Shown here: one piece after another, positions 5,224-30,039 of the stretch
How positions within the stretch are numbered: the stretch's first letter is position 1
How the letters are laid out: each line of letters begins with the position of its first letter
NCBI GenBank assembly: GCA_947471505.1
Contig: CANIWM010000069.1
Location: 1-32,755, forward strand
DNA length: 32,755 nucleotides
Reading direction: 5' to 3'
Source: Chthoniobacteraceae bacterium
GTDB taxonomy: Bacteria > Verrucomicrobiota > Verrucomicrobiia > Chthoniobacterales > Chthoniobacteraceae
The notes under the pieces: generated by a model
What the model was told of the DNA's origin: nothing
Seen by the model: the letters and a program-made list of their open reading frames with translations, nothing else
Databases searched by the model: none
Position numbers and translations under genes: made by a program

Positions 5224-5504
5224 GTGTACCCCACGGCCTACAAAGCGTGTACCCTGAGGGATCACGCTCTGTACCCTCAGGGTACAAGGTGTGATCCCTC
5301 GACCTGCAAGGCGTGATCCTACGGCCTGCAAGGTGTGATCCCACGGACTGCAAGGTGTGATCCCACGGCAGCAGAGCCTGACCCCACGGCCTGCAAGGTG
5401 TGATCCCACGGCAGCAGAGCGTGATCCCTCAGGGTACAAAGCGTGATCCCACGGCCTGCAAGATGTGATCCCACGGGGATCACGCTCTGCAGGCCGTGGG
5501 ATCA
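5224..5504. repeat. 22-bp degenerate tandem repeat array with inverted terminal unit
   Basis: About twelve head-to-tail copies of a 22-bp unit, consensus GTGATCCCACGGCCTGCAAG plus GT, start near 5224, 5247, 5270, 5291, 5313, 5335, 5357, 5378, 5400, 5421, 5443 and 5465, so the period is 21-23. Early units carry GTACC in place of GATCC. The array ends with an inverted copy (5477-5504) that pairs with 5444-5471 at about 24 of 28 positions over a 5-nt loop. A 15-nt near-palindrome (GTACCCTCAGGGTAC) lies at 5271-5285. It fills the gap between two convergent genes, where it could stop transcription from both sides. There are no unique spacers, so it is not CRISPR. Confidence 0.85.
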
Positions 5505-13221: not shown

Positions 13222-14253
13222 ATGAACCAAAACACCCGCAATTTCCTGTGCGCGATCCTCTGCGGCCTTTTCGCCGTGGCCCGGCTTTCTGCCGCCCAGA
13301 TTTCGGGCACCGTGTCGGCGCAGATTTCGAACACTGCTGCTACTTTTGATCTCACCGCGCTCGGGACCTCGGATTGGGCGTATTGGAACAAAGCCGACCT
13401 CGTCACCGTCGCCACCCTTGCGCCGGCGAACGAGAAAGCCGGAGCCACGTTGATAAGTGTCGTGTCGCCCGTGGGCGGGACAGCCGTGCGAGGGACAAAC
13501 TCCGCCACGAAGCCTCCGGTGGACTTTTCATTTACCGACGGCACCTCGCCGACCAGCGGGACGCAGACCGATCCGACTGCGGTGTTCAATTCCACGCTGG
13601 GCGCCGCGTCGATCGGCACGAGCTTCACCGTCACGCTGCCGACGGTGAACACGTACCAGATTCTGGTTTGGGCGGGCGGCTTTGCATCCACGGGGGCTAC
13701 GGCGAAAACGCGGCTGAGCGCGACGGTCGGTGCGGTGAGCTACTCGAGTCTGGGGGAGACGATCATTCCGGGCACTCCGAAGCCCACATTCCTCTACACG
13801 CTCACAGTCACTTCGGACACGGCGAATCAAGTCGTGACCGTCAGCAACATTCTCGCCGAATTGAGCGGCACGACTACGAACGCCCACGCGCTTATTGTCG
13901 GGTCGGCCGTTTCGCTCAGTTCGACGCCTTCATCGGATTCCGACGGTGACGGGCTCACCGATGTGCAGGAGCAGGTCCTCGGTCTGGACCCGCAAGTATC
14001 GAATGCCGCGCTCATCGCCGCGATTAAGAGCCATCCGGACTACTTCGCCTTGTTCGATGACGCTGGTATTCTAGGCCTCGCGCAGGGCGGCGTGGTTCTG
14101 CCGCAGGTCGGAGCGGAGGTGGTGAATTTCACAATCGAGGTTCAACGAAGCACGAATCTCACGGACTGGTTCGGCCTCCAAACCTTTAATCGCAACGTGC
14201 TGCTGCCGGACGGGAAAAACTTCCTCCGCCTCTCCATCGAGACTCTTCCATGA
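13222..14253 (+). CDS. Exported protein with calcium-binding (TSP3-like) motif, coupled to the FAD/SGNH fusion
   Basis: Protein of 343 residues from ATG 13222, with a signal peptide (MNQNTRNFLCAILCGLFAVARLSAAQ). An upstream TTG at 13174 would add 16 polar residues and is unlikely. Residues about 27-245 are Ser/Thr-rich beta-sandwich-like sequence. DSDGDGLTDVQE is a thrombospondin-3/EF-type calcium loop, followed by the module NAALIAAIKSHPDYFALF and a C-terminal strand block ending in QRSTNLTDW and FLRLSIE. The same loop plus SHPDYFAL module occurs inside the next protein. Its stop overlaps the next start (ATGA, 14250-14253), so expression is coupled. Function unknown; a surface or matrix partner is inferred. 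Confidence 0.8.
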   Translation: MNQNTRNFLCAILCGLFAVARLSAAQISGTVSAQISNTAATFDLTALGTSDWAYWNKADLVTVATLAPANEKAGATLISVVSPVGGTAVRGTNSATKPPVDFSFTDGTSPTSGTQTDPTAVFNSTLGAASIGTSFTVTLPTVNTYQILVWAGGFASTGATAKTRLSATVGAVSYSSLGETIIPGTPKPTFLYTLTVTSDTANQVVTVSNILAELSGTTTNAHALIVGSAVSLSSTPSSDSDGDGLTDVQEQVLGLDPQVSNAALIAAIKSHPDYFALFDDAGILGLAQGGVVLPQVGAEVVNFTIEVQRSTNLTDWFGLQTFNRNVLLPDGKNFLRLSIETLP

Positions 14254-17200
14254 AACGACTGCTCCTTTTCGCCTGCACCCTCGCCACTGCTGCGGCAGCG
14301 CCGGTTTACCACGATGTCGTCGTGTATGGCGGCACCTCGGGCGGAGTCGTCGCCGCGACGCAAGCCGCGAAGTCCGGGAAGTCTGTGGTGCTGATTTCGC
14401 CGACAGCGCATCTCGGCGGGATGTCGAGCAGCGGGCTCGGGTTTACCGATTTGGGAAGCAGCGAGATTCTCGGCGGGCTCAATCGCGAGTTCTACCACCG
14501 CGCGTATCTTTACTACCAGCAAGGCAGCTCGTGGAATTGGCAGACGCAGGCGAGCTTCGGAAATCCGAGCAATCAGGGCGTGCCCTCGTTCAACGCGGCG
14601 ACGCAAGTGTCCTCGGTCTTCGAGCCGAAAGTCGCGGAGGCGATCTTCAATCAGTTCCTCGCCGAAGAGAGCGTGCCTGTCGTGACTGGTCGCCTCGATC
14701 TGGCTGGGGGCGTGGTGATGAGTGCCGGTAAAATCAGCTATCTACGGCTGGAGGACGGCCGGGAGTTTTCCGGAAAAATGTTCATCGACGCCAGCTACGA
14801 AGGCGATCTGCTCCCCGGCGCGGGTGTAAGTTTCACCGTCGGTCGCGAAGCAAACGCGACCTACAACGAAACGTTCAGCGGCATTCAGACGGCACGGGCG
14901 ACGAGCAACCAATTGCCCAACGGCATCGACCCCTACGTCACCGCGGGCAATGCGGCCAGCGGTCTGCTGCCCGGCGTCGCTGCGGATGCGGGCGGCTCCG
15001 ACGGCACAGGCGACGCAAAACTACAGGCCTACTGCTTTCGCATGGTGCTCACCGACGTTGCCGCAAACCGCATCATGATTCCGCAGCCCGTCGGCTACGA
15101 CGAAGCGGACTACGAACTGCTCTTCCGCGCGATCGAAGCGGGGCAGACGACCGGATTTTTCAAGCTCAGCGCGATGCCAAATCGCAAGACCGATTCCAAC
15201 AACACCGGAGGCATTTCCACCGACTTCATCGGCAAAAACTACGGTCCCGGCTGGGACTGGACCACGCTCACTCACGCCCAGCGCGACGCGCTCGCACTTC
15301 AGCACGAGAAGTGGCAGCGTGGACTCGTCTGGACGCTGCAAAACCACACGCGAGTGCCGCTCTCCATCCGCAACGCTTACGCGACATGGGGACTGCCGGC
15401 GGATGAATTCACCGACAGCGGCAACTGGGCGTTTCAGCTCTACGTGCGCGAGTCCCGGCGCATGGTTTCCGACTACGTTATGACCCAGGCGAATTGCGCA
15501 GGAGGCGTCGTGGCGACAGATTCCATAGGCCTCGCCGCCTACTCGATGGACTCGCACAACGTCCAGCGACACGTGAAAAACGGCGTGGTGAAAAACGAAG
15601 GCGACGTGCAAATGGCCGTCCCGAATCCCTACCCGATTTCGTACCGCTCCATTATCCCGAAGCAGGGCGAATGCACGAATCTTTTGGTTCCGTGGAGCCT
15701 CTCCGCCACGCACATGGCATTTGGCTCGATCCGCATGGAGCCCGTGTTCATGGGCTTGTCACAATCCGCCGCCATCGCCGCGAGTCTGGCCATCGATCAA
15801 GACGTGGCCGTTCAGAATCTTTCCTACACATCGTTGCGTCCGGCGCTCTTGGCGGCTGGTAAATCGCTCGGCAATCCTCCGGCGGGGACTCCCGCGAACA
15901 TCGTGGATAATACCGATTCGGGCCAGGTGACGATCACCGGCGCGTGGACATCCGCGAATGCGACGACTGGCTTCATCGGCACCGACTACCTTCACGACGG
16001 CAACACCGGGCAGGGCACGAAGGAGGTTTTCTATCGAGTGCCGGCGAGCCTCACCGGACTCCATCTCGTCCAACTCCGCTGGACCGCAAACACGAACCGC
16101 GCGAGCAACGTAACCGTCGAAATCCGCCACCGCGACGGCTCGGATTTCCGAACCATCAACCAGCGCGAAAATGGCGGCGCCTGGAATATGCTAGCCGTCC
16201 AGCCGTTCACGGGAGCCGCGACCGAGGGCGTTGTCATCAAGACCACTGGCGCAAACGGTTTCGTGATCGCCGATGCGGTCGGTTTCACCCCGCTCACTTC
16301 CACGATGGACACCGATGGCGACGGAATCAGCGACGTGAAAGAGAGCATCGTCGGGCTCAATCCGGCGGTGTCCGACGCGGCCTTCATCGCCGCTGTGAAA
16401 AGCCACCCCGACTATTTCGCGCTCCACTCCGCGAGCGAAATCCATGACTTCATCATCACCCAGCCATCGCTCACGGGAAACGGTGCGCCGTCGTTCAATC
16501 TTGGATTTTCCATGTGGAAGCCCGCCGCCGGAACCGGCTGGCAGATTCAGGAAACTTTCGCACTTCCCATGGTGAAGGATTCCGAGCGCAGTTTCTTCCG
16601 CGTCGCGCTGGAGTCGAAGCCCGCAAAACTCGTGACCGATCTCGCCGCGGGCAGCAACCGCAAGATCGTAGTGTACGGCACCAGCCTCACCGCCGGCGGC
16701 GCGTGGGTCGGCCAGATGAACACGTGGCTCTCTACGAAATACCCCGGAAAAATCACCATCATCAACAGCGGGCTCAGCGGCAAAAATTCCGCCACCGGCC
16801 TCGCCCAACTTTCCTCAAGCGTGCTCGCCCACAATCCCGACGTCGTATTCATCGAGTTCGCGATGAACGATGCCTTTTTGTATTCGGACGGCACCCCTCA
16901 ACTCAGCGTCGCACAAGCGCAGGCAAACCTCATCGCGATGATTGATGCCATTCAGGCGCAAAACCCGAACGTGGAAATCATCCTGCAAACGATGAACACC
17001 GTCTGGAATTCACCAGCCGGCAGCAACACTTCCGCGACGCTGCGACCCAATCTTGCCGCGTATTATCAGATGGTTCGCGACGTCGCCGCAGCGCGCGCTC
17101 TCATGGTCATCGACCACCATCCGAACTGGGCCGCCCTGCAACAAGCCGACCCCGCGACTTACCAGTCCTACATCACCGACGGAGTCCATCCCGGCACAGT

Positions 17201-17267
17201 CGGAATCACCAAAATCATGTTCCCGCTTTTGCAGTGGAAAATCTCGGGCGGGTTGCCGCTGCCGTGA
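14250..17267 (+). CDS. Exported fusion: FAD-dependent oxidoreductase + golvesin-like + TSP3 + SGNH esterase
   Basis: Protein of 1005 residues with a signal peptide (MKRLLLFACTLATAAAAP). Residues about 20-540 match the FAD_oxidored family: Rossmann motif VVVYGGTSGGVVAA (23-36), then HLGGMSSSGLGFTD and MFIDASYEGDLLPGAG. Residues about 548-683 look like a golvesin C-terminal-like domain (TGAW..SNATTGFIG..Y, VFYRVP). DTDGDGISDVKE and a SHPDYFAL module follow near 686-730. Residues about 803-1005 are an SGNH hydrolase: YGTSLT (Ser812), NSGLSG, FAMND (Asn873), DGVHPG (Asp977, His980). A flavin oxidoreductase joined to an esterase would act on one decorated glycan; this is inference. The start overlaps the preceding stop. 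Confidence 0.85.
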   Translation: MKRLLLFACTLATAAAAPVYHDVVVYGGTSGGVVAATQAAKSGKSVVLISPTAHLGGMSSSGLGFTDLGSSEILGGLNREFYHRAYLYYQQGSSWNWQTQASFGNPSNQGVPSFNAATQVSSVFEPKVAEAIFNQFLAEESVPVVTGRLDLAGGVVMSAGKISYLRLEDGREFSGKMFIDASYEGDLLPGAGVSFTVGREANATYNETFSGIQTARATSNQLPNGIDPYVTAGNAASGLLPGVAADAGGSDGTGDAKLQAYCFRMVLTDVAANRIMIPQPVGYDEADYELLFRAIEAGQTTGFFKLSAMPNRKTDSNNTGGISTDFIGKNYGPGWDWTTLTHAQRDALALQHEKWQRGLVWTLQNHTRVPLSIRNAYATWGLPADEFTDSGNWAFQLYVRESRRMVSDYVMTQANCAGGVVATDSIGLAAYSMDSHNVQRHVKNGVVKNEGDVQMAVPNPYPISYRSIIPKQGECTNLLVPWSLSATHMAFGSIRMEPVFMGLSQSAAIAASLAIDQDVAVQNLSYTSLRPALLAAGKSLGNPPAGTPANIVDNTDSGQVTITGAWTSANATTGFIGTDYLHDGNTGQGTKEVFYRVPASLTGLHLVQLRWTANTNRASNVTVEIRHRDGSDFRTINQRENGGAWNMLAVQPFTGAATEGVVIKTTGANGFVIADAVGFTPLTSTMDTDGDGISDVKESIVGLNPAVSDAAFIAAVKSHPDYFALHSASEIHDFIITQPSLTGNGAPSFNLGFSMWKPAAGTGWQIQETFALPMVKDSERSFFRVALESKPAKLVTDLAAGSNRKIVVYGTSLTAGGAWVGQMNTWLSTKYPGKITIINSGLSGKNSATGLAQLSSSVLAHNPDVVFIEFAMNDAFLYSDGTPQLSVAQAQANLIAMIDAIQAQNPNVEIILQTMNTVWNSPAGSNTSATLRPNLAAYYQMVRDVAAARALMVIDHHPNWAALQQADPATYQSYITDGVHPGTVGITKIMFPLLQWKISGGLPLP

Positions 17268-17504: not shown

Positions 17505-18704
17505 ATGAAACTTCTCATCACACTCGTTGCGCTTCTGTGCAGCCATTCTATTGCCGCGGACAAGAAACCGCTGCAAATCTACATCCTCGCCGGGCAATCA
17601 AACATGCAGGGCCATGCGAAGATCAGCACCATGGAGGTCATCGGGATGGACCCTGCGACGAAGCCGATGCTGGCGGAGATGCTCGGCGCGGATGGGAAAC
17701 CGAAGGTCTGCGAGCGCGTGTGGATTTCATCCATCGGTTGCGGGAAGGATCCGCAGGAGGAGCAGACCGGAAAGCTCACGGCGGGCTTCGGCGCGACGAC
17801 CGAGAAGATCGGGCCGGAGTTCACGTTCGGCCTTTACACGCAGAAGACAACGGATGCGCCCATTTTGCTCATCAAGACCTCATGGGGCGGCAAGAGCCTG
17901 AACACCGACTTCCGCTCGCCGAGCGCCGGGCCGTATGTCTTTAATGAGACGCAGGTCGCGGGTTTCGCAAAGCAGGGTAAGGACGTCGCGGAGATGAACG
18001 CTGCGAAGGAAAAAGAGACCGGTGTCTATTATCGGATCATGATCGAGCACGTGAAAAAAGTGCTCGCCGATCCGAAGCGCGTGGTGCCCGGATACGACGC
18101 CGCGCAGGGCTACGAACTCGCGGGCTTCGCATGGTTCCAGGGCTGGAACGACATGGTGGACCAAGGCACGTATCCGAATCGCGACAAGGCCGGTGGCTAC
18201 GATGCCTACAGCACGGCGATGGCGCATTTCATCCGTGATGTACGGAAGGATTTGAACGCGCCGAAGATGCCATTCGTCATCGGAGTGATCGGAGTCGGCG
18301 GGCCGACTGCGGAGTATGGCCCCGATCAGCAGCGCTACAAGACGACCCATCAGAACATCCGCGACGCCATGGCAGCGCCGGCGCAGTTGCCGGAGTTCAA
18401 AGGCAACGTCGCCGCGATTTTGGCGGAGAAGTATTGGGACAAGGAGCTGACTGCCGCGAAAGCGAAGGACGGCGACATCCGGCAAAAGGCAAAGAAGCTC
18501 GCTGCCGAGAGCAAGCTGACACCCGCCGATGAAAAAGCCGCGCTGGAAAAAATGCGGGCGGAAGGACTCTCCGAGCGCGAGCGGACCCTGCTGGAGAAGG
18601 GAATCTCCAATGCCGAATTTCACTACCTGGGCTCGGCGAAGATCCTCGGCGGAGTCGGCAAGGGGCTCGCGGAAGCGATGGCGGAACTCAAAAAGACAAA
18701 ATGA
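17505..18704 (+). CDS. Exported SASA-family (sialate O-acetylesterase-like) carbohydrate esterase, copy 1
   Basis: Protein of 399 residues with a signal peptide (MKLLITLVALLCSHSIAADK). It belongs to the SASA/DUF303 SGNH-type esterases, some of which (CE6) remove acetyl groups from plant polysaccharides. Catalytic features are LAGQSNMQG with nucleophile Ser32, KTSWGGKSL near 124-132, WFQGWNDM near 210-217 and NAEFHYLG with the catalytic His373. Unlike copies 2 and 3 it has a charged helical insertion (about 310-365) before the His block. It is first in a two-gene unit with the DUF6288 protein. The substrate is not sialic acid by necessity; acetylated glycan is inferred. Confidence 0.9.
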   Translation: MKLLITLVALLCSHSIAADKKPLQIYILAGQSNMQGHAKISTMEVIGMDPATKPMLAEMLGADGKPKVCERVWISSIGCGKDPQEEQTGKLTAGFGATTEKIGPEFTFGLYTQKTTDAPILLIKTSWGGKSLNTDFRSPSAGPYVFNETQVAGFAKQGKDVAEMNAAKEKETGVYYRIMIEHVKKVLADPKRVVPGYDAAQGYELAGFAWFQGWNDMVDQGTYPNRDKAGGYDAYSTAMAHFIRDVRKDLNAPKMPFVIGVIGVGGPTAEYGPDQQRYKTTHQNIRDAMAAPAQLPEFKGNVAAILAEKYWDKELTAAKAKDGDIRQKAKKLAAESKLTPADEKAALEKMRAEGLSERERTLLEKGISNAEFHYLGSAKILGGVGKGLAEAMAELKKTK

Positions 18705-18706
18705 TT

Positions 18707-18845
18707 TTGCACCACAGAGGTGGGATGAGCACAGAGAACTGTGAGGAGGCGAGAGCTTTTACACCAACTGCCGTCGCCCACCATCCAAGCACAAGTCGTC
18801 CATCACCCATGAGATCTCTGCGCTCATCCCGTCTCTGCGGTGCAA
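18707..18845. repeat. Imperfect inverted-repeat element upstream of DUF6288 copy 1
   Basis: The left arm 18707-18736 and right arm 18816-18845 are reverse complements at 26 of 30 positions (left arm starts TTGCACCACAGAGGTGGGAT, right-arm complement starts TTGCACCGCAGAGACGGGAT). The 79-bp interior has no gene. It lies between the esterase stop and the DUF6288 start, so a transcript would carry a 30-bp stem there. No target duplication is visible, and the second esterase-DUF6288 unit has only 10 bp at the same place, so this is an insertion in copy 1 or was lost from copy 2. Similar ACCGCAGA cores occur at 4203-4339. Confidence 0.75.
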
Positions 18846-18859
18846 TCCCAATCCCACTT

Positions 18860-21277
18860 ATGAAAACCACACTCCTCGCGTTCGCGCTCGCCGCCTTGCT
18901 CGCCGCGCCGCTTCCGGCTTTGGCCGCGGCCAAGGCCCAGCCGCTGAAGATTCCTGACTTCACGAAAGGCGACGCGATTCCGGCCGGCGCGAAGCACGAC
19001 TGGAACCTCGGTGCCACGGGCGCGCGCGGCTGGATGTTTTGCGACAAGATGGTGACCAGCGACGCGCGCCAGATTTCGATTACGAAAGTGGAGAAGGGTT
19101 CTCCCGCCGATGGCATTCTAGCGATCGGCGATGTCCTGCTCGGCGTGGGCGGCAAGCCGTTTTCCTACGATCCGCGCACGGAGTTCGGCAAGGCAATCAC
19201 CGGCGCGGAATCGGATGCTGGCGGAGGAAAGCTGAGCGTTTCGCGGTGGCGGGCGGGCAAGTCGAAGGAGGTCATTTTGAAACTCCCGGTGCTTGGTAGT
19301 TACAGTGCGACTGCGCCTTTCGATTGCGCGAAATCGCGGCGCATTTTGGAGCTGGGGTGCAAGGCGCTGGCGGCGCGGATGGCGAAGCCCAAAGATGACG
19401 AGGATGCGATTGTGCGTTCGATGAACGCGCTCGCTTTGCTCGCCAGCGGCAACCCCGAATACCTCCCGCTGGTGAAACGCGAGGCTCAGTGGGCGGCGGG
19501 TTTTACGGACGATAGTTTTCAGACCTGGCACTACGGCTACGTCATCATGCTGCTCTCCGAGTATAAGATGGCGAGCGGCGATGAGTCGGTGATGCCGGGG
19601 CTGCGACGGCTCGCCCTGGAGGCGGCGAAGGGGCAGAGTGCGGTGGGCTCGTGGGGGCATGGGTTTGCCATCCCCGATGGGCGGCTCGGCGGCTACGGGA
19701 TGATGAATGCGCCGGGCGTGCCGCTCACGATTTCGCTCGTGCTGGCGCGCGAGGCGGGCGTGAAAGATCCTGCGCTGGATCTCGCAATCGAGCGCAGTGC
19801 GAAGTTGCTGCGTTTCTACATTGGAAAGGGTGCGATTCCCTACGGTGACCATCATCCGTGTGTTGCTGTCCACGATGACAACGGCAAGTGCGGGATGGGC
19901 GCTGTCCTGTTCAATTTACTCGGCGAGGCGAAGGGTGCGGAGTTCTTCTCCCGCATCAGTGCGGCCTCGCACGGGCCGGAGCGCGACTGCGGGCACTGCG
20001 GAAATTTCTTCAACCTCCTGTGGGCTGTCCCGGGTGTTGCCCTCTCCGGCCCGAATGCGACCGGAGCGTGGATGAATGAGTTTGGCTCCTGGTATTTCGA
20101 TCTCGCCCGGCGGTGGGATGGGACGTTTCCGCACCAAGGCCCGCCGGAGTTTGAGCAAGACAGCTACGATGGATGGGACGCGACGGGCGGTTACCTGCTG
20201 GCCTGCGCGATGCCGCTGAAGAAGATTTATCTCACCGGAAAACGCCCCAGCATCACCCCACAGCTCGACGCTGCCGCTGCGCAATCGCTCATCGCCGATG
20301 GTCGCGGCTGGAGCAACAAAGACGAGCACAGCGCCTATGACAAACTCAGCGAAGCTCAGCTTCTGGAGCGCCTCGGGAGTTGGGCACCCACGGTGCGTGA
20401 GCGCGCCGCGATTGCACTCGAACGGCGGAAGGATGCGCCCATTTCAGCCCTGCTAAAAATGCTGGAGTCCCCCTCGCTGGAAGCCCGTTACGGCGCGTGC
20501 CAGGCGCTTCGGGCGCTGGGCGAGCGAGCTGCGCCCGCCGTGGATGCGCTGCGGAAAGTTTTGTCCGAACGCGACCTGTGGCTCCGCATCAAAGCAGCCG
20601 ATGCGCTTGCAGCCATCGGCACTCCCGCGATGCCGGCGGTTCCGCAAGTTCTCGAACTGCTCGCCAAAGTGGACGCCGAGAACGACCCGCGCGGGATGCA
20701 GCAGCGGTATCTTTGCTTCGCGCTTTTCGATGACGGCGAGGAGCATAGTGTTGGAATGCTCAACTCTTCCTTGGAAGGTGTAGACCGCGAGTTGCTCTAC
20801 AAGGCTGTGAGGGCTGGTCTCAGGAACCAGGATGGTCGTGCCAGGGGCAGCATCGGCTCTGTCTATCGGAATCTCTCTGCCAAAGAAATCAAGCCACTGT
20901 TGCCCGCGATCTACCAGGCGGTCATCGAACCAGCCCCGAGCGGCGAAATGTTTGCCGACTCGATCCGTGTGGAGGGGCTCCGTCTTTTGGCAAAACATCG
21001 CATCGAGGAAGGAATCGCGGCGTGCGTGACATACACGCGCGACCAAAACCCGTGGGATAGCCAAGAGCGCACGCCGGAACTGATGAAAGTTCTTCTCAGC
21101 TACGGCACCCACGCAAAGCCCGTCATCCCGGAACTGAGGAAGATCGCGGACTACTTCGAGAAGGAAGAAAAGGACTTTCCTGAGGAGCTGATGATCATGA
21201 AGGCCAAGTGTGTCCGGAAAACAATTCGTGCGATCCAAGGCTCGCGCGACACCCCGGAACTCGTCCGGCTAAAATGA
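18860..21277 (+). CDS. Exported DUF6288 protein (PDZ-like + helical core + HEAT), copy 1
   Basis: Protein of 805 residues from ATG 18860, giving a clean signal peptide (MKTTLLAFALAALLAAPLPALAAA). The frame open from 18701 runs through the inverted repeat and is not used. Residues about 45-142 form a PDZ-like domain (ITKVEKGSPADGILAIGDVLLGVGGKPF). Residues about 155-460 form a helical core with conserved polar blocks SWGHGFAIPDGRL, GYGMMNAPGVPL, YGDHHP, DNGKCGM, ERDCGHCGNFFN and DSYDGWDATGGY, resembling (alpha/alpha)-barrel enzymes. Residues about 495-760 form HEAT-like repeats. No activity is known to me for DUF6288. Pairing with the SASA esterase suggests a joint role on an esterified glycan. 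Confidence 0.85.
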   Translation: MKTTLLAFALAALLAAPLPALAAAKAQPLKIPDFTKGDAIPAGAKHDWNLGATGARGWMFCDKMVTSDARQISITKVEKGSPADGILAIGDVLLGVGGKPFSYDPRTEFGKAITGAESDAGGGKLSVSRWRAGKSKEVILKLPVLGSYSATAPFDCAKSRRILELGCKALAARMAKPKDDEDAIVRSMNALALLASGNPEYLPLVKREAQWAAGFTDDSFQTWHYGYVIMLLSEYKMASGDESVMPGLRRLALEAAKGQSAVGSWGHGFAIPDGRLGGYGMMNAPGVPLTISLVLAREAGVKDPALDLAIERSAKLLRFYIGKGAIPYGDHHPCVAVHDDNGKCGMGAVLFNLLGEAKGAEFFSRISAASHGPERDCGHCGNFFNLLWAVPGVALSGPNATGAWMNEFGSWYFDLARRWDGTFPHQGPPEFEQDSYDGWDATGGYLLACAMPLKKIYLTGKRPSITPQLDAAAAQSLIADGRGWSNKDEHSAYDKLSEAQLLERLGSWAPTVRERAAIALERRKDAPISALLKMLESPSLEARYGACQALRALGERAAPAVDALRKVLSERDLWLRIKAADALAAIGTPAMPAVPQVLELLAKVDAENDPRGMQQRYLCFALFDDGEEHSVGMLNSSLEGVDRELLYKAVRAGLRNQDGRARGSIGSVYRNLSAKEIKPLLPAIYQAVIEPAPSGEMFADSIRVEGLRLLAKHRIEEGIAACVTYTRDQNPWDSQERTPELMKVLLSYGTHAKPVIPELRKIADYFEKEEKDFPEELMIMKAKCVRKTIRAIQGSRDTPELVRLK

Positions 21278-21293
21278 AACTCCGTTCAAGAAT

Positions 21294-21508
21294 GGGTGTG
21301 ATTAAAAGTGGAATTGAAGAAGTCGCGACAGCGACAAGGAGCGGCGACATTCTTGTCGCTGTCCCCTACAACGCGAAGCGTCCAATCAGTTCCGTGCGGC
21401 TCTCGGAATCGGCGCGGTTTTCTAATTGGACGCTTCGCGTTATGGATACAGCGACAGGAATGTCGCCGCTCCTTGGGCTTCGCCTGTATTCCACTTTTAA
21501 TCACACCC
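21294..21508. mobile_element. MITE-like non-autonomous transposable element with 9-bp target duplication
   Basis: A 215-bp element bounded by perfect 20-bp terminal inverted repeats: 21294-21313 (GGGTGTGATTAAAAGTGGAA) and 21489-21508. It is flanked by the 9-bp direct repeat TTCAAGAAT at 21285-21293 and 21509-21517, the footprint of transposition. Inside, two inverted copies of a core containing GGAGCGGCGACATTC.TGTCG face each other, and a second pair (CGCGAAGCGTCCAAT) lies nearer the centre, so the whole element can fold into a long hairpin. It encodes no transposase and must move in trans. A 9-bp duplication is known for several IS groups (IS4/Tn5, IS1, IS903-type). It sits 8 bp upstream of the copy 2 esterase's start once the duplication is counted. 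Confidence 0.9.
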
Positions 21509-21524
21509 TTCAAGAATCAGCACC

Positions 21525-22718
21525 GTGAAACGCATCGTCACCTTCCTCATCACCGCACTCTTCGCCGCTGCCAGCGCCGACGCGAAGCCACTGAAGGTCT
21601 TCATCCTTGCCGGACAGTCGAACATGGAAGGCCATGCGGAGATCGGGACGTTTGACTACATCGGCGACGATCCCGCCACCGCGCCGCTGCTGAAGCAAAT
21701 GCGCGGTCCGGATGGCAAACCGCACGTCTGTGACCACGCCTACATCAGCTACTTCACCGGCGGCGACACCAATGGCGAAGGCTTTGGCAAGCTGACCGCC
21801 GGTTACGGAGCACGGGAGAATCCGTGCGAGGACGGCGGCAAGATCGGCCCAGAGTTCACGTTTGGCATCACCATGGATGCGGCGTTCGACGAACCTGTGC
21901 TGCTCATCAAAACAGCGTGGGGTGGGAAGTCGCTCTTCCATGACTTTCGTCCGCCGAGTGCCGGGGTCTATCCGCGCACATCTCAGGACATCAAAGAGAA
22001 CCGCTACCACAAGGCGAAGTCCGGGCATTACTACCGGCTGATGATCGAGCATGTGAAAAAGGTGCTGGCCGATCCCAAGCGCGTTTGCCCCGAATACGAT
22101 GCCGCGCAGGGTTTCGAGGTCGCGGGCTTCGTCTGGCTGCAAGGCTGGAACGACATGGTGGACTACGACGTCTATCCCGAGGTGGATGAGCACAGTAAGA
22201 AACCGCGTTTCGCCAAATACAGCGAGTGCCTGGCGGCCTTCATTCGCGATGTTCGCAAGGACATCAACGTCCCGAAGATGCCGTTCATCATCGGCGTGAT
22301 GGGCGTCAACGGCACGAAGGCGGACGCGGCCATCCTCGCGTTCCGCGAAGCCATGACGGCTCCCTCGCTGCTGCCGGAGTTCAAAGACAATGTCGCCGCT
22401 GTGCCAACCGCGCCGTTTTGGTCCATGGAACTCGGAGCGATTGACGAAAAGTATGAGCAGGTGGAGCAGATGCGATACTTCCTCGATGCAAAACACGAAG
22501 ACCACCCCAACGCCAATGGCAAGATGACCAAGCGCCAGAAGGAGGCGTATGTGAAATCGTTCGAGGCCAAACTCATCTCGCCTGCGGAGGTCGCCTTGTT
22601 GAAGCGCGGCGCCTCCAACGCTGGCTACCACTACCTCGGCTGCGCGAAGACGTTCGCGCTGATGGGCAAGGCCTTTGCCGAAGCCATGCTCTCGATGATG
22701 AAAGAACAAAAACGCTGA
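21525..22718 (+). CDS. Exported SASA-family carbohydrate esterase, copy 2
   Basis: Protein of 397 residues with GTG start at 21525 and a signal peptide ending near ASADAK. Nucleophile Ser32 is in FILAGQSNMEG, followed by KTAWGGKSL, VWLQGWNDMVD, and the catalytic His369 in NAGYHYLGCAKTF. It is closer to copy 3 (30040-31278) than to copy 1: both carry the MRYFLD.KH.DHPNA block and the APFW..ELGAI segment that copy 1 lacks. Followed 10 bp later by DUF6288 copy 2, so the pair is an operon unit. The MITE at 21294-21508 now occupies its upstream region and may have altered its promoter or leader. Confidence 0.9.
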   Translation: MKRIVTFLITALFAAASADAKPLKVFILAGQSNMEGHAEIGTFDYIGDDPATAPLLKQMRGPDGKPHVCDHAYISYFTGGDTNGEGFGKLTAGYGARENPCEDGGKIGPEFTFGITMDAAFDEPVLLIKTAWGGKSLFHDFRPPSAGVYPRTSQDIKENRYHKAKSGHYYRLMIEHVKKVLADPKRVCPEYDAAQGFEVAGFVWLQGWNDMVDYDVYPEVDEHSKKPRFAKYSECLAAFIRDVRKDINVPKMPFIIGVMGVNGTKADAAILAFREAMTAPSLLPEFKDNVAAVPTAPFWSMELGAIDEKYEQVEQMRYFLDAKHEDHPNANGKMTKRQKEAYVKSFEAKLISPAEVALLKRGASNAGYHYLGCAKTFALMGKAFAEAMLSMMKEQKR

Positions 22719-22728
22719 ACTATTACCG

Positions 22729-25131
22729 ATGAAACTCTCACTCCTTACGCTCGCAATCATCGCCGCTCTCGTTGCGCCGCTCTCGGCGACTGCAGCTTCG
22801 CCCAGCGACAAGCTGACGATGCCGGACTTCACCAAAGGCGAGGCGATTCCCTCGAAGGCGAAGCACGACTGGAATCTCGGCGCGACCGGTGCGCGGGGAT
22901 GGATGTTTTGCGATAAGATGGTGACCACCGATGCGCGGCAGATTGCCATCACCAAAGTCGAAAGCGGATCGCCCGCCGATGGCCTCCTCGCAGTCGGCGA
23001 CGTGCTGCTCGGCGTGGGCGGCAAGCCGTTTTCCTACGACCCTCGCACGGAGTTCGGCAAGGCGCTCTCGGCTGCGGAATCCGACGCGGGCGGTGGAAAA
23101 CTAACGCTCTCACGCTGGCGGGCGGGCAAGTCGGAAGAGGTCGTATTGAAGCTCGCGGTGCTGGGCAATTACAGCGCCACCGCGCCTTTTGCCTGCCCGA
23201 AGTCGAAGCGCGTTTTTGAGCAAGGATGCAAGTTGCTCGCCGCGAAAATGACCGCACCGGGCTACGGGAAAAATCTCGACCCGATTCCCCGCTCGCTCAA
23301 CGCGCTCGCGCTGCTGGCCAGCGGAGACGCGGCGTATTTGCCGCTCGTCAAAAAGGAAGCGCAGTGGGCGGCGGACTTCTCGGCGGGCTCGATGCAGACT
23401 TGGTATTACGGCTACGTGATGATGCTGCTCTCCGAATACGTCATCGCGACGGGCGACCAATCGGTCATGCCCGGCTTGAAGCGACTCGCTCTGGAAGCGG
23501 CCACCGGCCAGAGCGCCGTCGGTTCCTGGGGACACCGGTTCGCGATTGCCGACGGTCGCCTCAGCGGGTACGGCATGATGAACTCTCCCGGCGTGCCTCT
23601 CACCACCTCGCTGGTCCTGGCCCGAAGGGCTGGTGTGAAGGACGCAGCGGTGGACCTCGCCATCGAGCGCAGCGCCCGGCTTCTGCGTTTCTACATTGGA
23701 AAAGGCGCGATCCCCTACGGCGACCACGCACCGTGGACGCAGACGCACGAAGACAACGGCAAATGCGGAATGGTCGCCGTCCTCTTCAGCCTGCTCGGCG
23801 AAGCAAAGGGCGCGGAGTTTTTCTCCCGCATGTGCGTCGCCTCGCACGGAGCGGAGCGCGACACCGGCCACACGGGCAACTTCTTCAACATGCTCTGGGC
23901 CATGCCCGGCATCGCGCAATCCGGCCCGCAGGCCACCGGCGCTTGGATGCAGGAATTTGGCGGCTGGTACTTCGACCTCGCGCGTCGCTGGGACGGCGGC
24001 TTCGCGCACCAAGGCCCGCCCGAGCCCGACAACGACAGCTACTCTGGCTGGGACTGCACCGGCGCTTTCCTGCTCGCCCACGCCATGCCGCTCAAGAAAA
24101 TCCACCTCACCGGCAAACGCCCCGCCGCAGTCCCGCAACTCAACGCCGCCGCCGCGCAATCGCTCATCGCCGACGGACGCGGCTGGAACAACAAAGACCG
24201 CAAAAGCGCCTACGACGCGCTCAGCGAAGAACAACTGCTCGCACGCCTCGCCAGTTGGTCGCCCACCGTCCGCGAGCGAGCTGCGGCAGGCCTCGAACGC
24301 AAAAAGAGCGTCGCCATTCCCGCGCTGCTGAAAATGCTCGAATCGCCCAGCCTCGACGCCCGCTATGGTGCCTGCCAGGGACTCGGCTCGCTGCGCGGAG
24401 CCGCCGCATCCGCAGTCCCCGCACTTCAAAAAGCCCTCAGCCACGAAGACCTCTGGCTGCGCATCCAGGCCGCCGAAGCCCTCGCCGAAATCGGCAAGCC
24501 CGCCAACGTCGCCGTCCCGGAACTTCTGGAGCGCCTCGCACGCGGCCCGACAAAAGAAGACCCTCGCGCCATGGAACAGCGCTACCTTTGCTCCGCGCTC
24601 TTCGGCACGCTGCTCAAAAAATCGCTCGACGGCGTGGACCGCGACCTCCTCCGCAAAGCCGTCGCCGCCGGCCTGCGCAACCAGGACGGACGCGCTCGCG
24701 GCGAAGTCGGCGGCATTTACAAACAGCTCACCTACGACGAGCTCAAGCCCCTCATGCCCGCCATCCTCGAAGCCATCGTCACCCCCGCGCCGAGCGGCGA
24801 AATGTTTGCCGACGGCATCCGCGTCGAAGGGCTCAAGCTCCTGGCCAAACACCGCATCGCCGAAGGAATCGCCGCCTGCGTGAAATACACCCGCGAGCAA
24901 AACCCGTGGGCCAGCCAGGAGCGCACCCCCGAGCTGATGAAAATCCTCCTCACCTACGGCACCCACGCAAAAGCGGTCATCCCCGAGCTGACAAAACTCG
25001 GCGACTACTTCGAGAAAGACGAAAAGGATTTCCCCAAGAAGCTCATGCTCGTGAAAGCCAAGAGCGTCCGCGACACCATCGCCGCCATCGAAGCCTCGAC
25101 GGAATCCCCGGAACTCATCCGGCTCAAATAG
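22729..25131 (+). CDS. Exported DUF6288 protein (PDZ-like + helical core + HEAT), copy 2
   Basis: Protein of 800 residues with a signal peptide (MKLSLLTLAIIAALVAPLSATAA), collinear with copy 1 over its whole length and clearly a paralogue. It keeps the PDZ-like segment (ITKVESGSPADGLLAVGDVL), the core blocks SWGHRFAIADGRL, GYGMMNSPGVPL, YGDHAP, DNGKCGM, ERDTGHTGNFFN and DSYSGWDCTGAF, and the HEAT region. Differences are a few extra residues in the loop after the first core helix (TAPGYGKNLDP) and a shorter loop after CSALFGT. Retention of the polar blocks in both copies supports a shared active or binding site. It follows the copy 2 esterase by 10 bp. Confidence 0.85.
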   Translation: MKLSLLTLAIIAALVAPLSATAASPSDKLTMPDFTKGEAIPSKAKHDWNLGATGARGWMFCDKMVTTDARQIAITKVESGSPADGLLAVGDVLLGVGGKPFSYDPRTEFGKALSAAESDAGGGKLTLSRWRAGKSEEVVLKLAVLGNYSATAPFACPKSKRVFEQGCKLLAAKMTAPGYGKNLDPIPRSLNALALLASGDAAYLPLVKKEAQWAADFSAGSMQTWYYGYVMMLLSEYVIATGDQSVMPGLKRLALEAATGQSAVGSWGHRFAIADGRLSGYGMMNSPGVPLTTSLVLARRAGVKDAAVDLAIERSARLLRFYIGKGAIPYGDHAPWTQTHEDNGKCGMVAVLFSLLGEAKGAEFFSRMCVASHGAERDTGHTGNFFNMLWAMPGIAQSGPQATGAWMQEFGGWYFDLARRWDGGFAHQGPPEPDNDSYSGWDCTGAFLLAHAMPLKKIHLTGKRPAAVPQLNAAAAQSLIADGRGWNNKDRKSAYDALSEEQLLARLASWSPTVRERAAAGLERKKSVAIPALLKMLESPSLDARYGACQGLGSLRGAAASAVPALQKALSHEDLWLRIQAAEALAEIGKPANVAVPELLERLARGPTKEDPRAMEQRYLCSALFGTLLKKSLDGVDRDLLRKAVAAGLRNQDGRARGEVGGIYKQLTYDELKPLMPAILEAIVTPAPSGEMFADGIRVEGLKLLAKHRIAEGIAACVKYTREQNPWASQERTPELMKILLTYGTHAKAVIPELTKLGDYFEKDEKDFPKKLMLVKAKSVRDTIAAIEASTESPELIRLK

Positions 25132-25570
25132 TCCAGCGGTAGCGGCGGTGCGGGAACCCGCACTTCACGACGCATGCCGACACACGATCACAGCGATCGG
25201 GGCGGGCCGGGACATCGAGCCCGCTGCGCCCGTGCATCGACCGAAAACCCTCCGGATGGAGTCGGGCTCAGGCGATAAAGACGAAGCGATAGCCCATAAA
25301 TTGCCGCGGCTGTTCGCAATGTTTTCGTCTGCCTTCACTGTGGATCTGGAAATGGGAGTCGGTGCGGTGCGGGCCTACTCGATTCACGGGTAGATGCGAA
25401 ACTTCCTTTCAGCCGCGCCCGAACACGGATGAATGGAGTGACGTCATGCTCGGGCGAACACCGGTTCGCGCGAAACGGCTTGCCCGGAGCGATGGCGCAA
25501 TCTCACCTCAACTAACAAGTCCACATCACACAGCCCGTCCATTACTTCCGTGTTCAAATCCTATCTCACC
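25132..25570. other. Intergenic region of 439 bp without a recognised gene
   Basis: Short chance frames only. A small perfect hairpin, GTGCGGG-AA-CCCGCAC (25148-25163), lies 17 bp after the DUF6288 stop and could contribute to transcription termination, although no T-tract follows. Composition is slightly less GC-rich towards 25500-25560, where the promoter for the alpha/beta hydrolase would be expected. No tRNA, repeat copy or transposase remnant was recognised. Confidence 0.5.
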
Positions 25571-26449
25571 ATGCGTCAAACCGTCCTCGCTTTCATTTGT
25601 TCAATCTTCGTTCTTGGCCCGTCGTTCGGGGCTGAGCTTGCTGTGCCGGACAATGTCGTCTTTGAACGGGCGATCGAGTTTTCCAATCCCGACAACCAGC
25701 ACTTGCAGGTGGATCTTGCGATGCCGAAAGAAGGCACGGGGCCTTTCCCGGCTGTGGTTTGTATCCATGGCGGCGGCTTTCGTGCCGGGACGCGTGAGGG
25801 GTATGACAACCTCTGCGTGACGCTCGCGCAGCACGGGTATGTGGCAATCACCGTCACCTACCGGCTCGCGCCCGCGTATCAGTTCCCTGCGGCGGTCCAG
25901 GATTGCAAAACGGCGGTGCGTTGGCTGCGGGCGAATGCGGCAAAGTATCATGTCGATCCGCATCGTATCGGAGTGACCGGGGGCTCCGCGGGCGGCCATC
26001 TCGCCCAGTTTCTCGGCGTGACGATGGGGGTGAAGGCTTTTGAAGGGGAAGAGTACAACGAGCAGTCGAGCGACGTCGCCTGCGTGGTGAATTTTTACGG
26101 GCCGAGTGACTTCACGAAGTCGTACGATAAGAGCGTGGATGCGAAGGAGGTGCTGCCGCTTTTCTTCGGGGGCGACCTCACCACGAAGCGCCGCGAACAC
26201 ATCATCGGCAGTCCGCTCTACTGGGTCACGCCATTCGCCGCGCCGACTCTTTGCGTGCATGGCACCGAAGACACGTACGTCGCCTATGAGCAGGCGGAAT
26301 GGATCGTGGCCAAACTCAAGGCCGCCGAGGTGGAGGTGAAGCTGCTGACCCTCGAAGGCGCGGGGCACGGATTCAAAGGAGAGTTTTTGGAGAAGGCCGA
26401 CAAGGCGCTCATGGAGTTCTTCGATGCGCATCTGAAGGCGGCGAAGTAA
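25571..26449 (+). CDS. Exported alpha/beta hydrolase (BD-FAE-like esterase)
   Basis: Protein of 292 residues from ATG 25571, which places the signal peptide ([22 protein letters not shown]) at the start; GTG 25550 would add seven residues before it. Alpha/beta hydrolase fold: oxyanion motif HGGGF (66-70), nucleophile elbow GGSAGG with Ser139, acid Asp234 in HGTEDTY and base His266 in GAGHGF. Architecture and length fit the bifunctional feruloyl/acetyl-xylan esterase-like (BD-FAE, HSL-related) group that removes side groups from plant cell-wall polysaccharides. It precedes the double glycosidase by 29 bp, consistent with one operon. Exact substrate inferred only. Confidence 0.88.
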
Positions 26450-26478
26450 CGAGGAAAACCAAAGCGACAAACGACTGT

Positions 26479-28719
26479 ATGAAACTCGCGCTTATTCTTT
26501 GCACACTCTTGGCTGCGGTCTTCAACAGCCCCGGCGAAACCACGGGCGCTCAACCGAACCGCGAAAAGTCCGACAGACCGGAGATCGACCTCATCAAATT
26601 CAAGCTGACCTTTAGCGACGAGTTCGAAGGCGACCAACTCGACGCGACGAAATGGCAGGCTCCGGAGATGCCCCGGCAAGGGAGTTCGCGCTGGGTGAAG
26701 TCGCTCGCCACGGTGCGCGACGGGGCGCTGCATCTTGGAATCCGACTGACCGAAGATCCTGTGCTCCGCTACGACTGCGCGGCGGTGCGGACGCGGCGCG
26801 ATTATGATCCGTCCAAGACGATGTTTCAGCAGCGGTATGGATACTTTGAGGCGCGCGCCAAGTTGCCAAAAAATCTGAAAGCGGACTACTGGGCGGCGTT
26901 TTGGATGATGTGCGGAAACGTGAACAGTGCCGACACGCGCGAAGGCTTGGAGACGGATATTTTGGAAAGCTTCCCACTCGCGTACAAGACGAAGGTCGCG
27001 CTGGCGTTTCACTGGAATGGGTATGGCGAGAAGCATAACTCCACAGGTGTCGAACTGGCACCGACGCCGGAACTGCGCGACGGGGAGTTTCATCGCTACG
27101 GGCTGTATTGGGATGAGCACGTTTACGTGGCTTTTTACGACGGCAAAGAAATCGGGCGGACCGATTTGATCGGGCTCGGGAAAAGCGATGGCGGCAAGAC
27201 GCAGTCGCAAGGGCCGTGTCAAAAGCCCGGCTACTTGAAGTTGAGCTGCGAAGCCGCGCCGTGGGCGGGAGCGACCGACAAATGGGAAAAGGAGCCGACT
27301 AAGGAGGATGAGTTCGTGGTGGATTATGTCCGCGTTTATGAAGGGACATTGCCTGCGCCAGTCGCGGAGGCTGTGCCGCTGCCGAAGCTCAAGGTGAGCG
27401 ATAGCCATCGCTTTCTAGTGAACGAATCCGGCCAGTCTTTCTTTTGGTTGGCCGACACGGCGTGGGAACTTTTCCATCGCCTGAATCGCGAAGACGCGGA
27501 GCGGTATTTGATGAACCGCGCGAAGCTTGGCTTCAATGTCGTCCAGGCAGTTGCGCTCGCGGAATTCAACGGGCTCACCGCGCCGAACGCGTATGGCCAT
27601 TTGCCGCTGAAAAACAACGACCCGCGGCAACCGGACGAGGACTATTTCAAGCACGTGGATTGGATCGTCGCGAAGGCGAACTCTCTCGGGCTTTACGTAG
27701 GGTTCCTGCCGACGTGGGGCGACAAGTGGAACAAGAAGTGGGGTTCCGGGCCGGAGATTTTCACGCCGCAAAATGCCGAGGCTTATGGCGAGTGGCTGGC
27801 CAAACGATACAAGGACGCGGGCATCGTGTGGATTCTCGGCGGCGACCGTCCGGTGGAAAACGACGCGCATAAAGAGATCATTCGGGCGATGGCTCGGGGG
27901 CTCCGCAAGGGCGACGGCGGCACGCATCTCATCACGTTCCATCCGACCGGGGGCAGCGGCTCCAGCGTTCCGTTTCACAACGAGGAGTGGCTCGATTTTA
28001 ACATGCGGCAGAACGGGCATGTGGCGGAGTTCACCGGACGCTTTGAGCAGACTCGCGCGGATTACGACCGCACGCCGATCAAGCCGGTGCTGGACGGCGA
28101 GCCGATTTATGAGGGGCATCCGGTTTCATTTGATGCGAAGAAGTTCGGTCACTCGGTGGCGGCGGACATCCGTCGGGCGTTCTATTGGGACGTGTTCACC
28201 GGCGCTTGCGGGCACACTTATGGGCATCATTCCGTGTGGGCCATGCACAGTGCGAAGCAGGCTCCCGTCAATTCACCGCTGATGCCGTGGACCGATGCCA
28301 TCAACGAACCCGGCGCGGCGCAGGTCGGCATCGGTCGGCAACTCATCGAGTCGCGCCCATTCCTCACTCGCGTGCCCGATGATTCGGTGCTCGTGCCATC
28401 GGAGTATCCGACGCTCGTGCCCGGCGCGGGCACACGGCGTTTCGCGGCGACCCGCGACAGCGCTGGCAGTTGCGCGATGGTCTATGTGCCGGTCGGCCGC
28501 ACTTTCACGGTCCGCATGGACAAGATTTCCGGGTCGCAGGTGAAGGCGTGGTGGTTCAACCCCCGCGACGGCACCGCCACGGCGTTCGGCACCTTTGAGA
28601 ACAAGGGCGAGAAATTATTCACACCGCCAACGCCTGGCGAACTTCTCGACTGGGTGCTGGTCCTTGACGACGCCGCGAAAGGCTATCCGCAACCAGGAGC
28701 GAGGGCATCAAAACCGTAA
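26479..28719 (+). CDS. Exported double glycosidase: GH16-like + GH140-like (DUF4038)
   Basis: Protein of 746 residues from ATG 26479, with a signal peptide ([20 protein letters not shown]). Residues about 38-290 are a GH16-type jelly roll: [23 protein letters not shown], and the catalytic ETDILE motif with Glu158, Asp160 and Glu163; it ends with [11 protein letters not shown]. Residues about 300-735 match GH140/DUF4038: [31 protein letters not shown] (Asp456), LDGEPIYE (Glu541) and a C-terminal beta domain (AWWFNPRDG). Asp456 and Glu541 are candidate catalytic residues. GH140 includes apiosidases acting on rhamnogalacturonan-II; GH16 covers beta-glucans and galactans. Upstream extension to 26299 overlaps the hydrolase and is discarded. 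Confidence 0.88.
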
Positions 28720-28730
28720 CCGCAAAACTT

Positions 28731-29108
28731 ATGTCCAATCCACGCTTCGCTGTCGCCCAACTCGATGAAATCCCGCCGACTCCTTGTCCCTGCGGACAGG
28801 CGCGCCGCGCTTTTATGGAGGATTGGAATCAGCTCGCCACCGTGCATCTCACGGACATCCACGCGGACAGCCGCGCCCATTATCACAAGAAGATGACGGA
28901 GATTTACGTCGTGCTTGAGGGCGAAGGCTATCTCGAGGCCGATGGCGAAATCATTCCGCTCAAGCCCATGACCACCGTTATGATTCGCCCCGGCTGCGTC
29001 CACCGCGCTGTGGGCAATCTGCGCATCATCAATGTGCCCATGCCGCCTTTCGATCCCGCGGATGAGTTTGAGGTGGGAAGTCCGGATCAACCCGCGGAGC
29101 TTCCGTGA
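28731..29108 (+). CDS. Single-domain cupin protein
   Basis: Small cytoplasmic protein of 125 residues. Cupin motif 1 is HYHKKMTEIYVVLEGEG (His50, His52, Glu57), and motif 2 is IRPGCVHRAVGN (His91), giving a complete metal site. Such small cupins may act as sugar isomerases, sensors or dioxygenase-like proteins; nothing in the sequence decides which. It starts 11 bp after the double glycosidase, and its stop overlaps the GTG start of the next hydrolase (GTGA, 29105-29108), so all three are probably one transcript. It is the only protein of this cluster without a signal peptide. Confidence 0.9.
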   Translation: MSNPRFAVAQLDEIPPTPCPCGQARRAFMEDWNQLATVHLTDIHADSRAHYHKKMTEIYVVLEGEGYLEADGEIIPLKPMTTVMIRPGCVHRAVGNLRIINVPMPPFDPADEFEVGSPDQPAELP

Positions 29109-29995: not shown

Positions 29996-30039
29996 CGGAG
30001 ATTGCGCCGCCATTGTGAACCGATTAGGCAGCCCGCACT

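Follow-up and report, generated by a model that had tools for sequence, protein, structure and literature searches.

The subject of this work is a locus of five genes on contig CANIWM010000069.1, which makes up the whole of the analysed window (32,755 nucleotides) and belongs to a 6.07-Mb draft genome of a Chthoniobacteraceae bacterium in 153 contigs (assembly GCA_947471505.1). The locus consists of three genes for SASA-like esterases (E1, E2 and E3) and two for proteins of the family DUF6288 (D1 and D2), in the order E1, D1, E2, D2, E3, all five being intact open reading frames (ORFs) on one strand. The initial annotation described E1-D1 and E2-D2 as a tandem duplication of a two-gene unit, and this was not borne out. 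We consider it probable that three separately inherited DUF6288-esterase modules have been gathered here, and that they reflect a partnership between a secreted deacylase and a barrel protein acting on a glycan. Sequence comparison shows the history of the D1-E2 and D2-E3 units, and it also shows that genes of the two families are recurrently linked and sometimes fused.

Inherited units of the locus

In locus L139, whose genome (G006) is congeneric with that of the window, the sister of D1 is directly followed by the sister of E2 (support 100/99). The spacer between these two genes is almost identical to the one in the window but lacks a palindrome of 215 bp, i.e. it is an empty site, and in the window the palindrome is flanked by a 9-bp target duplication. 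Since L139 holds the same spacer without the element, and the duplication is present in the window, we take the palindrome to be an insertion of a miniature inverted-repeat transposable element (MITE)-like sequence into the D1-E2 unit. The element is 76% palindromic and it has the features expected of a MITE, i.e. it is short and non-coding, has terminal inverted repeats and a target-site duplication, and occurs in many copies; no parent transposase was matched, no search for one having been made. Copies of at least 50 bp were found in at least 31 places across the genome, this one included (a hand-compiled count for which 40 of 115 candidates were scored, and which missed C103:13018-13069). 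The E1-D1 spacer also looked palindromic and was considered as another repeat, but a second copy was not found in the genome.

The second unit is seen in locus L057, where the sister of D2 and the sister of E3 are directly adjacent, in this order (100/97). DNA similarity between the window and L057 resumes at position 30007, 33 bp upstream of the start of E3, which means that D2 and E3 are now parted by a segment of about 4.9 kb. E3 was initially regarded as a third SASA esterase without a partner, yet in L057 the gene right after the D2 orthologue is the orthologue of E3. Taken together, these neighbourhoods indicate that D1-E2 and D2-E3 are the inherited units and that E2-D2 is not one, so the phase E1-D1/E2-D2 had paired E2 with the wrong DUF6288 gene. 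E1-D1 as the only natural phase is excluded for D1, because L139 has the orthologues of D1 and E2 across the same spacer.

The closest relatives of E1 are L137_S6602 (96/91) and then L111_S12294 (100/98), and each of the two directly follows a DUF6288 gene that belongs to a third clade. Apart from D1 and D2, the genome of the window has one full DUF6288 gene, on contig C48, which is placed in a further clade. It also has an ORF of 512 aa on contig C90 with a weaker DUF6288 match, and further weaker traces. The C90 ORF is below the length cut-off of the tree and is thus unplaced. Hence, no DUF6288 gene of the usual partner type of E1 was seen in the genome.

The esterase positions relative to DUF6288 were compared in both esterase subfamilies. 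Among the E1-type rows (n=15) seven are adjacent upstream, five adjacent downstream and three nearby upstream, while the E2/E3-type rows (n=20) comprise nine adjacent upstream, seven adjacent downstream, three nearby upstream and E3, far downstream (window genes are included in both sets). Gene order is free in evolution, but the strand is always the same in both types. An E1-type gene directly upstream of DUF6288 is kept open as a second arrangement. The counts omit L145, L147 and L141, which are duplicates of L059, L057 and L063, respectively; L140, which has the same match pattern to the window as L111 and apparently duplicates it, was counted among "other", and L206 likewise looks like L124 again.

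Rejection of the tandem duplication

The pairwise protein identities are 73.7% for D1/D2, 51.3% for E1/E2, 51.5% for E1/E3 and 73.0% for E2/E3. The two esterases of the supposed units belong to different subfamilies. The similarity of D1 and D2 is not special, as DUF6288 proteins of several loci labelled Planctomycetota (L078, L082, L091 and L094) are 71-74% identical to D2. DNA similarity between the unit copies ends at the gene borders. Both proteins have nearer relatives elsewhere: L139_D for D1 (87%) and L057_D for D2 (88%).

In the DUF6288 tree (111 rows, built with a quick method and supported by Shimodaira-Hasegawa-like approximate likelihood ratio test values only) D1 and D2 fall into separate supported clades. 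Approximately unbiased (AU) tests on a 51-row subset (LG+C20) reject both constrained groupings: the penalty is 334 log units (p-AU 1e-79) when D1 and D2, the group taken from the earlier claim, are forced to be sisters, and 95 log units (p-AU 4.7e-6) when D1, D2 and their two orthologues, a group named after inspection of the tree, are forced into one clade. The esterase tree (80 rows, careful method) places E1 in a set of 14 rows (100/100), apart from E2 and E3, and unites E2, E3 and their two orthologues in one clade (96/92). Both trees and the AU tests reject a tandem duplication of the esterase-DUF6288 pair. The initial annotation had itself named a phylogeny without duplication in pairs as the outcome that would speak against it, and with this outcome the premise of a pair that stayed together while it was duplicated falls as well.

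E2 and E3 are more closely related to each other than D1 is to D2, and for this reason we read the history as an exchange of partners. Conversion between E2 and E3 may be an alternative source of their closeness.

Linkage of SASA and DUF6288 genes

The neighbourhood of DUF6288 genes was surveyed in the best 80 of 134 loci by similarity to D2, which are not independent of one another. The SASA profile was trained on SASA sequences from the window, the DUF6288-centred loci and the genome of the window, so that other SASA subfamilies are undercounted; the sulfatase profile, used as a control, was likewise trained on neighbours of DUF6288. A same-strand SASA gene lies within 700 bp of 33 of the 63 DUF6288 genes that have at least 700 bp of sequence on both sides (10 upstream, 24 downstream, 1 both). 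The share of bases covered by SASA is 25.4, 8.1, 4.3 and 2.4% at 0-1.5, 1.5-3, 3-6 and 6-10 kb from DUF6288, respectively, i.e. SASA is enriched about tenfold within 1.5 kb as compared to 6-10 kb. In the same four intervals the sulfatases show no peak (5.6, 7.9, 4.2 and 4.5%). Other neighbours were considered as the true partner and set aside: the sulfatases, ThuA-type genes (4.7, 4.5, 5.1 and 1.5%), and a cluster of S9 peptidases, which does peak (3.2, 1.4, 0 and 0%) but is rare (6 hits).

The reverse survey covered 57 related genomes, with esterases found by E2 at E≤1e-40. Thirteen of 31 E2-like esterases are within 700 bp of a DUF6288 gene on the same strand, and 13 of 28 DUF6288 genes are so placed; E1 and E2 of the window are counted here as adjacent and E3 as not adjacent. 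DUF6288 is an uncommon family, found in 37 of 387 sampled genomes of the phylum at E≤1e-30 (the genome of the window included) and, in an earlier draw, in 5 of 194 at E≤1e-60. The 42 stretches of the phylum samples hold 47 DUF6288 genes, and 13 of these have a SASA next to them or in the same ORF (12 if the doubtful L226 is left aside). Adjacent pairs with an E2/E3-type esterase also co-vary in their divergence (15 pairs; Mantel r 0.53, reached by 1 of 9999 permutations). Of the adjacent pairs, 15 of 16 with an E2/E3-type esterase and 10 of 12 with an E1-type esterase entered the Mantel tests, the window pairs and L087 being omitted.

Two further kinds of gene are found repeatedly at distances of up to 6 kb from DUF6288 (L065, L066, L069, L081, L104 and others), namely S9 peptidases, in clusters of 7 and 5 loci, and a serine dehydratase-type protein, in 5 loci; this recurrence might hint at a glycoprotein substrate. 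Another observation concerns a genus of the class (g28), eleven genomes of which (2.7-3.3 Mb) have a distant DUF6288 domain in a frame of about 1390-1506 aa. In the one of these that was read (G088, L233:4935-9365) the distant DUF6288 domain is accompanied by a weak NPCBM match, and no SASA was detected by the trained profile within 14 kb.

Fusion proteins

Five ORFs contain both domains according to the trained profiles and four of them are supported by Pfam, with both domain orders represented. DUF6288 precedes SASA in L217 (1212 aa) and L214 (1202 aa), and SASA precedes DUF6288 in L231 (1283 aa) and L199 (3327 aa); with 26.1 bits for SASA, L199 is barely over the cut-off of 24.8. The fifth candidate, L226, was dropped because Pfam does not support its SASA part at E≤0.001. 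No ORF with both domains was found in loci L057-L162 or in the window. In the quick DUF6288 tree L217 and L214 do not share a clade; L231 and L199 group as a pair that is distant and has long branches. The SASA parts of the four proteins take different places in the esterase tree, where the position of L199 is unresolved. The most economical reading of these placements is that fusion occurred at least three times independently. The fusions are the strongest evidence that SASA and DUF6288 act together.

Active site and family of the esterases

All three esterases score well above the Pfam cut-off for SASA (PF03629; 69.7, 61.1 and 55.0 bits for E1, E2 and E3, respectively, against 24.8) and have the block I serine motif GQSNM. 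In block III they carry QGWND, and QGW or QGF is found there in 15 of 15 E1-type and 19 of 20 E2/E3-type rows, in place of the oxyanion motif (H)QGE that is given as conserved in SASA in passages of PMC9487903. The late histidine block reads NAEFH in E1, NAGYH in E2 and SAGYH in E3, without the Asp of block V in SASA/SGNH enzymes; EcNanS likewise has no Asp beside the catalytic His, according to the same passages. Because of the QGW in block III and the lack of an Asp by the His, we file the three proteins, on their motifs, as divergent SASA-like rather than canonical SASA esterases. A sequence search of the PDB gave no match for E2 at E≤0.01 and one weak match for E1 (2apj, E 0.0019).

The segment preceding the catalytic His does differ in E1, as had been noticed at the outset, being 8 residues shorter in the alignment. 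The further idea that the esterases serve two related substrates is no more than suggested by the residue two positions before this His, which is Glu in 14 of 15 E1-type and Gly in 19 of 20 E2/E3-type rows.

Predicted fold of DUF6288

D1 and D2 are full-length members of DUF6288 (PF19805; 506 and 528 bits, cut-off 26.3, profile positions 1-402 of 402), and in both a HEAT_2 match shows HEAT repeats after the DUF6288 domain. The predicted model of D2 (mean predicted local distance difference test score, pLDDT, 88.3) has strands at about residues 55-141, in the PDZ-like part, then a core made up of helices only (about 157-451) and finally the HEAT helices at the C-terminus. For the whole model, the matches listed by Foldseek included chains of HEAT/armadillo type and other large helical repeats, and the core was therefore predicted alone (pLDDT 89.5). 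The predicted core matches (alpha/alpha)6-barrel proteins with Z about 20-21 over 269-302 residues at about 7-13% identity, including GH76 mannanases, a methylmannose hydrolase, 2-epimerases, unsaturated glucuronyl hydrolases and terpene cyclases. The match to the GH76 structures 6shd, 6shm and 6y8f (Z 21.1-21.4, 272-274 residues, root-mean-square deviation 3.4-3.6) is that of a predicted model, and other families match equally well. A PDB search with the DUF6288 profile gave strong hits to HEAT-type repeats, weak ones to the PDZ part, and none better than E 0.09 to the core.

An alignment of 33 representatives with less than 60% identity shows ten conserved residues (W225, E236, D243, H269, Y330, N343, H381, W390, W413 and R419), each present in at least 29 of the 32-33 rows that have a residue at the position. 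H269, Y330, N343, H381 and R419 are in or beside the loops after helices 5, 7, 9 and 11, which in the predicted geometry would share one face of the barrel. We infer that an active or binding site lies at this face.

Layout of the locus

The positions are collected in Table 1. The spacers are 155 bp (E1-D1), 247 bp (D1-E2), 10 bp (E2-D2), 418 bp (D2 to the next gene) and 44 bp (last inserted gene to E3). Judged by eye, the N-termini of all five proteins are hydrophobic and signal-like. The window is rich in hydrolases according to Pfam, with an FAD oxidoreductase carrying a GDSL domain, a BD-FAE-type esterase, the three SASA proteins and a GH16/apiosidase-like protein.

Table 1. Positions of the locus features within the window.
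Feature	Position	Strand	Remark
E1, SASA-like esterase, E1 subfamily	17505-18704	+	intact ORF, Pfam SASA
D1, DUF6288 protein (PDZ-like, core, HEAT)	18860-21277	+	intact ORF; likely ATG at 18860; orthologue L139_D
Target-site duplication (9 bp), left copy, TTCAAGAAT	21285-21293	+	
Palindromic MITE-like element between D1 and E2	21294-21508	not assigned	
Target-site duplication (9 bp), right copy, TTCAAGAAT	21509-21517	+	
E2, SASA-like esterase, E2/E3 subfamily	21525-22718	+	inherited partner of D1
D2, DUF6288 protein	22729-25131	+	intact ORF; orthologue L057_D
Segment parting D2 from E3	25132-30006	+	three genes
BD-FAE-type esterase	25550-26449		inside the segment
GH16 + apiosidase-like protein	26479-28719		inside the segment
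ORF without Pfam hit	29105-29995		inside the segment
E3, SASA-like esterase, E2/E3 subfamily	30040-31278	+	inherited partner of D2

A few neighbouring features are worth recording. The gene just upstream of E1 (14250-17267) joins an FAD oxidoreductase, Golvesin_C and a GDSL esterase domain, which is an odd combination. The GH16/apiosidase-like protein between D2 and E3 also has a collagen-binding-like domain in the same chain. Within the region 5228-5504 of the window, stretches of about 60-97 bp are repeated in direct and in inverted orientation.

Proposed history and function

In the explanation that we favour, E1 would represent a module whose own type of DUF6288 gene no longer stands beside it; the D1-E2 module was later split by the MITE-like element and the D2-E3 module by the three-gene segment. 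Both kinds of protein would be exported. The SASA-like esterase would remove acyl groups from a polysaccharide, and the (alpha/alpha)6 barrel of DUF6288 would then grip the bared stretch and probably process it, by cutting or isomerising the uncovered sugar, while the PDZ and HEAT parts may hold the partners or the glycan. Both this working order and the substrate are inferred. The idea that the two exported proteins work together was already part of the initial annotation, which proposed a neighbourhood survey as a check; with 33 of 63 and 13 of 31 genes adjacent, the enrichment of SASA against a flat sulfatase control and four fusions that had not been foreseen, the partnership is supported more strongly than a reader of the sequence by itself could know. 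We also put forward, tentatively and as a possibility rather than an expectation, that the DUF6288 proteins are secreted carbohydrate enzymes with an (alpha/alpha)6 barrel that have so far gone unrecognised and would make up a future CAZy family, that they act on chains deacylated by a dedicated, non-canonical SASA-like partner, and that the pair was repeatedly re-paired and fused across Verrucomicrobiota and Planctomycetota.

There are several points that weigh against the functional side of this proposal. The fold is common to glycosidases, epimerases and terpene cyclases and hence names no reaction. The loops at about 261-290, 331-340 and 371-390, which hold H269, Y330 and H381, are predicted with lower confidence (block means 55-74), so the positions of the side chains are not reliable. 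As regards linkage, 30 of the 63 DUF6288 genes have no adjacent SASA, and in the phylum sample this is true of 34 of 47 (35 without L226). SASA is absent, within the stretches read, beside the third full DUF6288 gene of the genome (C48, locus L152) and in the other six loci with diverged DUF6288 (L149 and L153-L157). The small S9-peptidase cluster (6 hits) is also found only near DUF6288, and the E1-type pairs give no signal of co-inheritance (10 pairs; Mantel r 0.12, reached by 2785 of 9999 permutations).

An alternative that we regard as rather unlikely, though it deserves attention, is that DUF6288 is not an enzyme but a surface or periplasmic scaffold in which PDZ part, toroid and HEAT repeats hold, fold or anchor the esterase and the glycan. 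Binding is the typical role of modules such as the PDZ-like and HEAT parts, Big_9, cadherin-like, PA14 or Laminin_G domains occur in some of the long DUF6288 proteins, and alpha/alpha toroids also serve as binding domains, e.g. in the C3/CD109 chains among the matches listed; nevertheless, the retention of W225, E236, D243, H269, H381 and R419 across 33 divergent representatives goes beyond what a plain scaffold would seem to need. It is much less probable that the locus is merely an esterase-rich carbohydrate island in which both families are neighbours because both are frequent. The wealth of esterases and hydrolases in the window (GDSL, BD-FAE type, three SASA, GH16/apiosidase) would fit such an island, but DUF6288 is uncommon, sulfatases are present in these loci without a peak beside DUF6288, SASA cover falls from 25.4 to 4.3% by 3-6 kb, and four proteins are fused.

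A true tandem duplication hidden by later divergence or gene conversion is already contradicted and we consider it highly improbable. The head-to-tail position and 74% identity of D1 and D2, the gap of only 10 bp between E2 and D2, and the occurrence elsewhere of E1-type genes directly upstream of DUF6288 (e.g. L076 of the D1 clade) might be cited for it. Against these stand the far closer orthologues of D1 and D2 in other genomes (87-88%), the rejection of their sister placement, the different, well-supported subfamilies of E1 and E2, and the D1-E2 spacer conserved in L139. The locus shows how easily head-to-tail paralogues can be misread as a tandem duplication, and how an empty insertion site and orthologous neighbours tell another history.

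With respect to the three inherited modules and their partnership, adjacency and the four fusions tie DUF6288 to a family of carbohydrate deacylases and hence to a testable class of substrates, and the matched gene pairs and single-chain fusions provide a ready set for expression. If DUF6288 is a true enzyme, a new family of glycan-active barrels would follow.

Comparison with known systems

DUF6288 (PF19805) is not mentioned in the open-licence literature searched, and none of the titles among the matches listed names a SASA-DUF6288 pair. The passages of PMC6411480 on HEAT, Planctomycetes and Verrucomicrobia do not describe this architecture.

It is useful to compare the two partners with better known families. 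E1-E3 resemble the SASA/CE6 carbohydrate esterases (PF03629) in Pfam score, GQSNM block and late His block, and differ from them by having QGW for (H)QGE and no Asp in the His block, as far as the motifs are laid out in passages of PMC9487903. In the CE20 family, which includes enzymes with a water-mediated triad, passages of PMC12313940 give a GQSNM serine and DxH at the His. E1 has ExH, i.e. an acid two residues before the His as in CE20, a likeness that is seen in the motifs alone. On the side of DUF6288, the GH76 alpha-1,6-mannanases have paired catalytic aspartates (D136 and D137, mutated in 6shm), and the likeness of DUF6288 to them is one of predicted fold only. The AGE/2-epimerase family carries a catalytic His pair in its (alpha/alpha)6 barrel. 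DUF6288 matches this barrel with Z about 20 and keeps H269 and H381, although we do not claim that these coincide with the epimerase histidines. DUF6288 differs from these (alpha/alpha)6-barrel carbohydrate enzymes in that it adds PDZ and HEAT parts. The pair can be described as a cassette of an esterase and a partner, the partner coming from an unstudied family, DUF6288.

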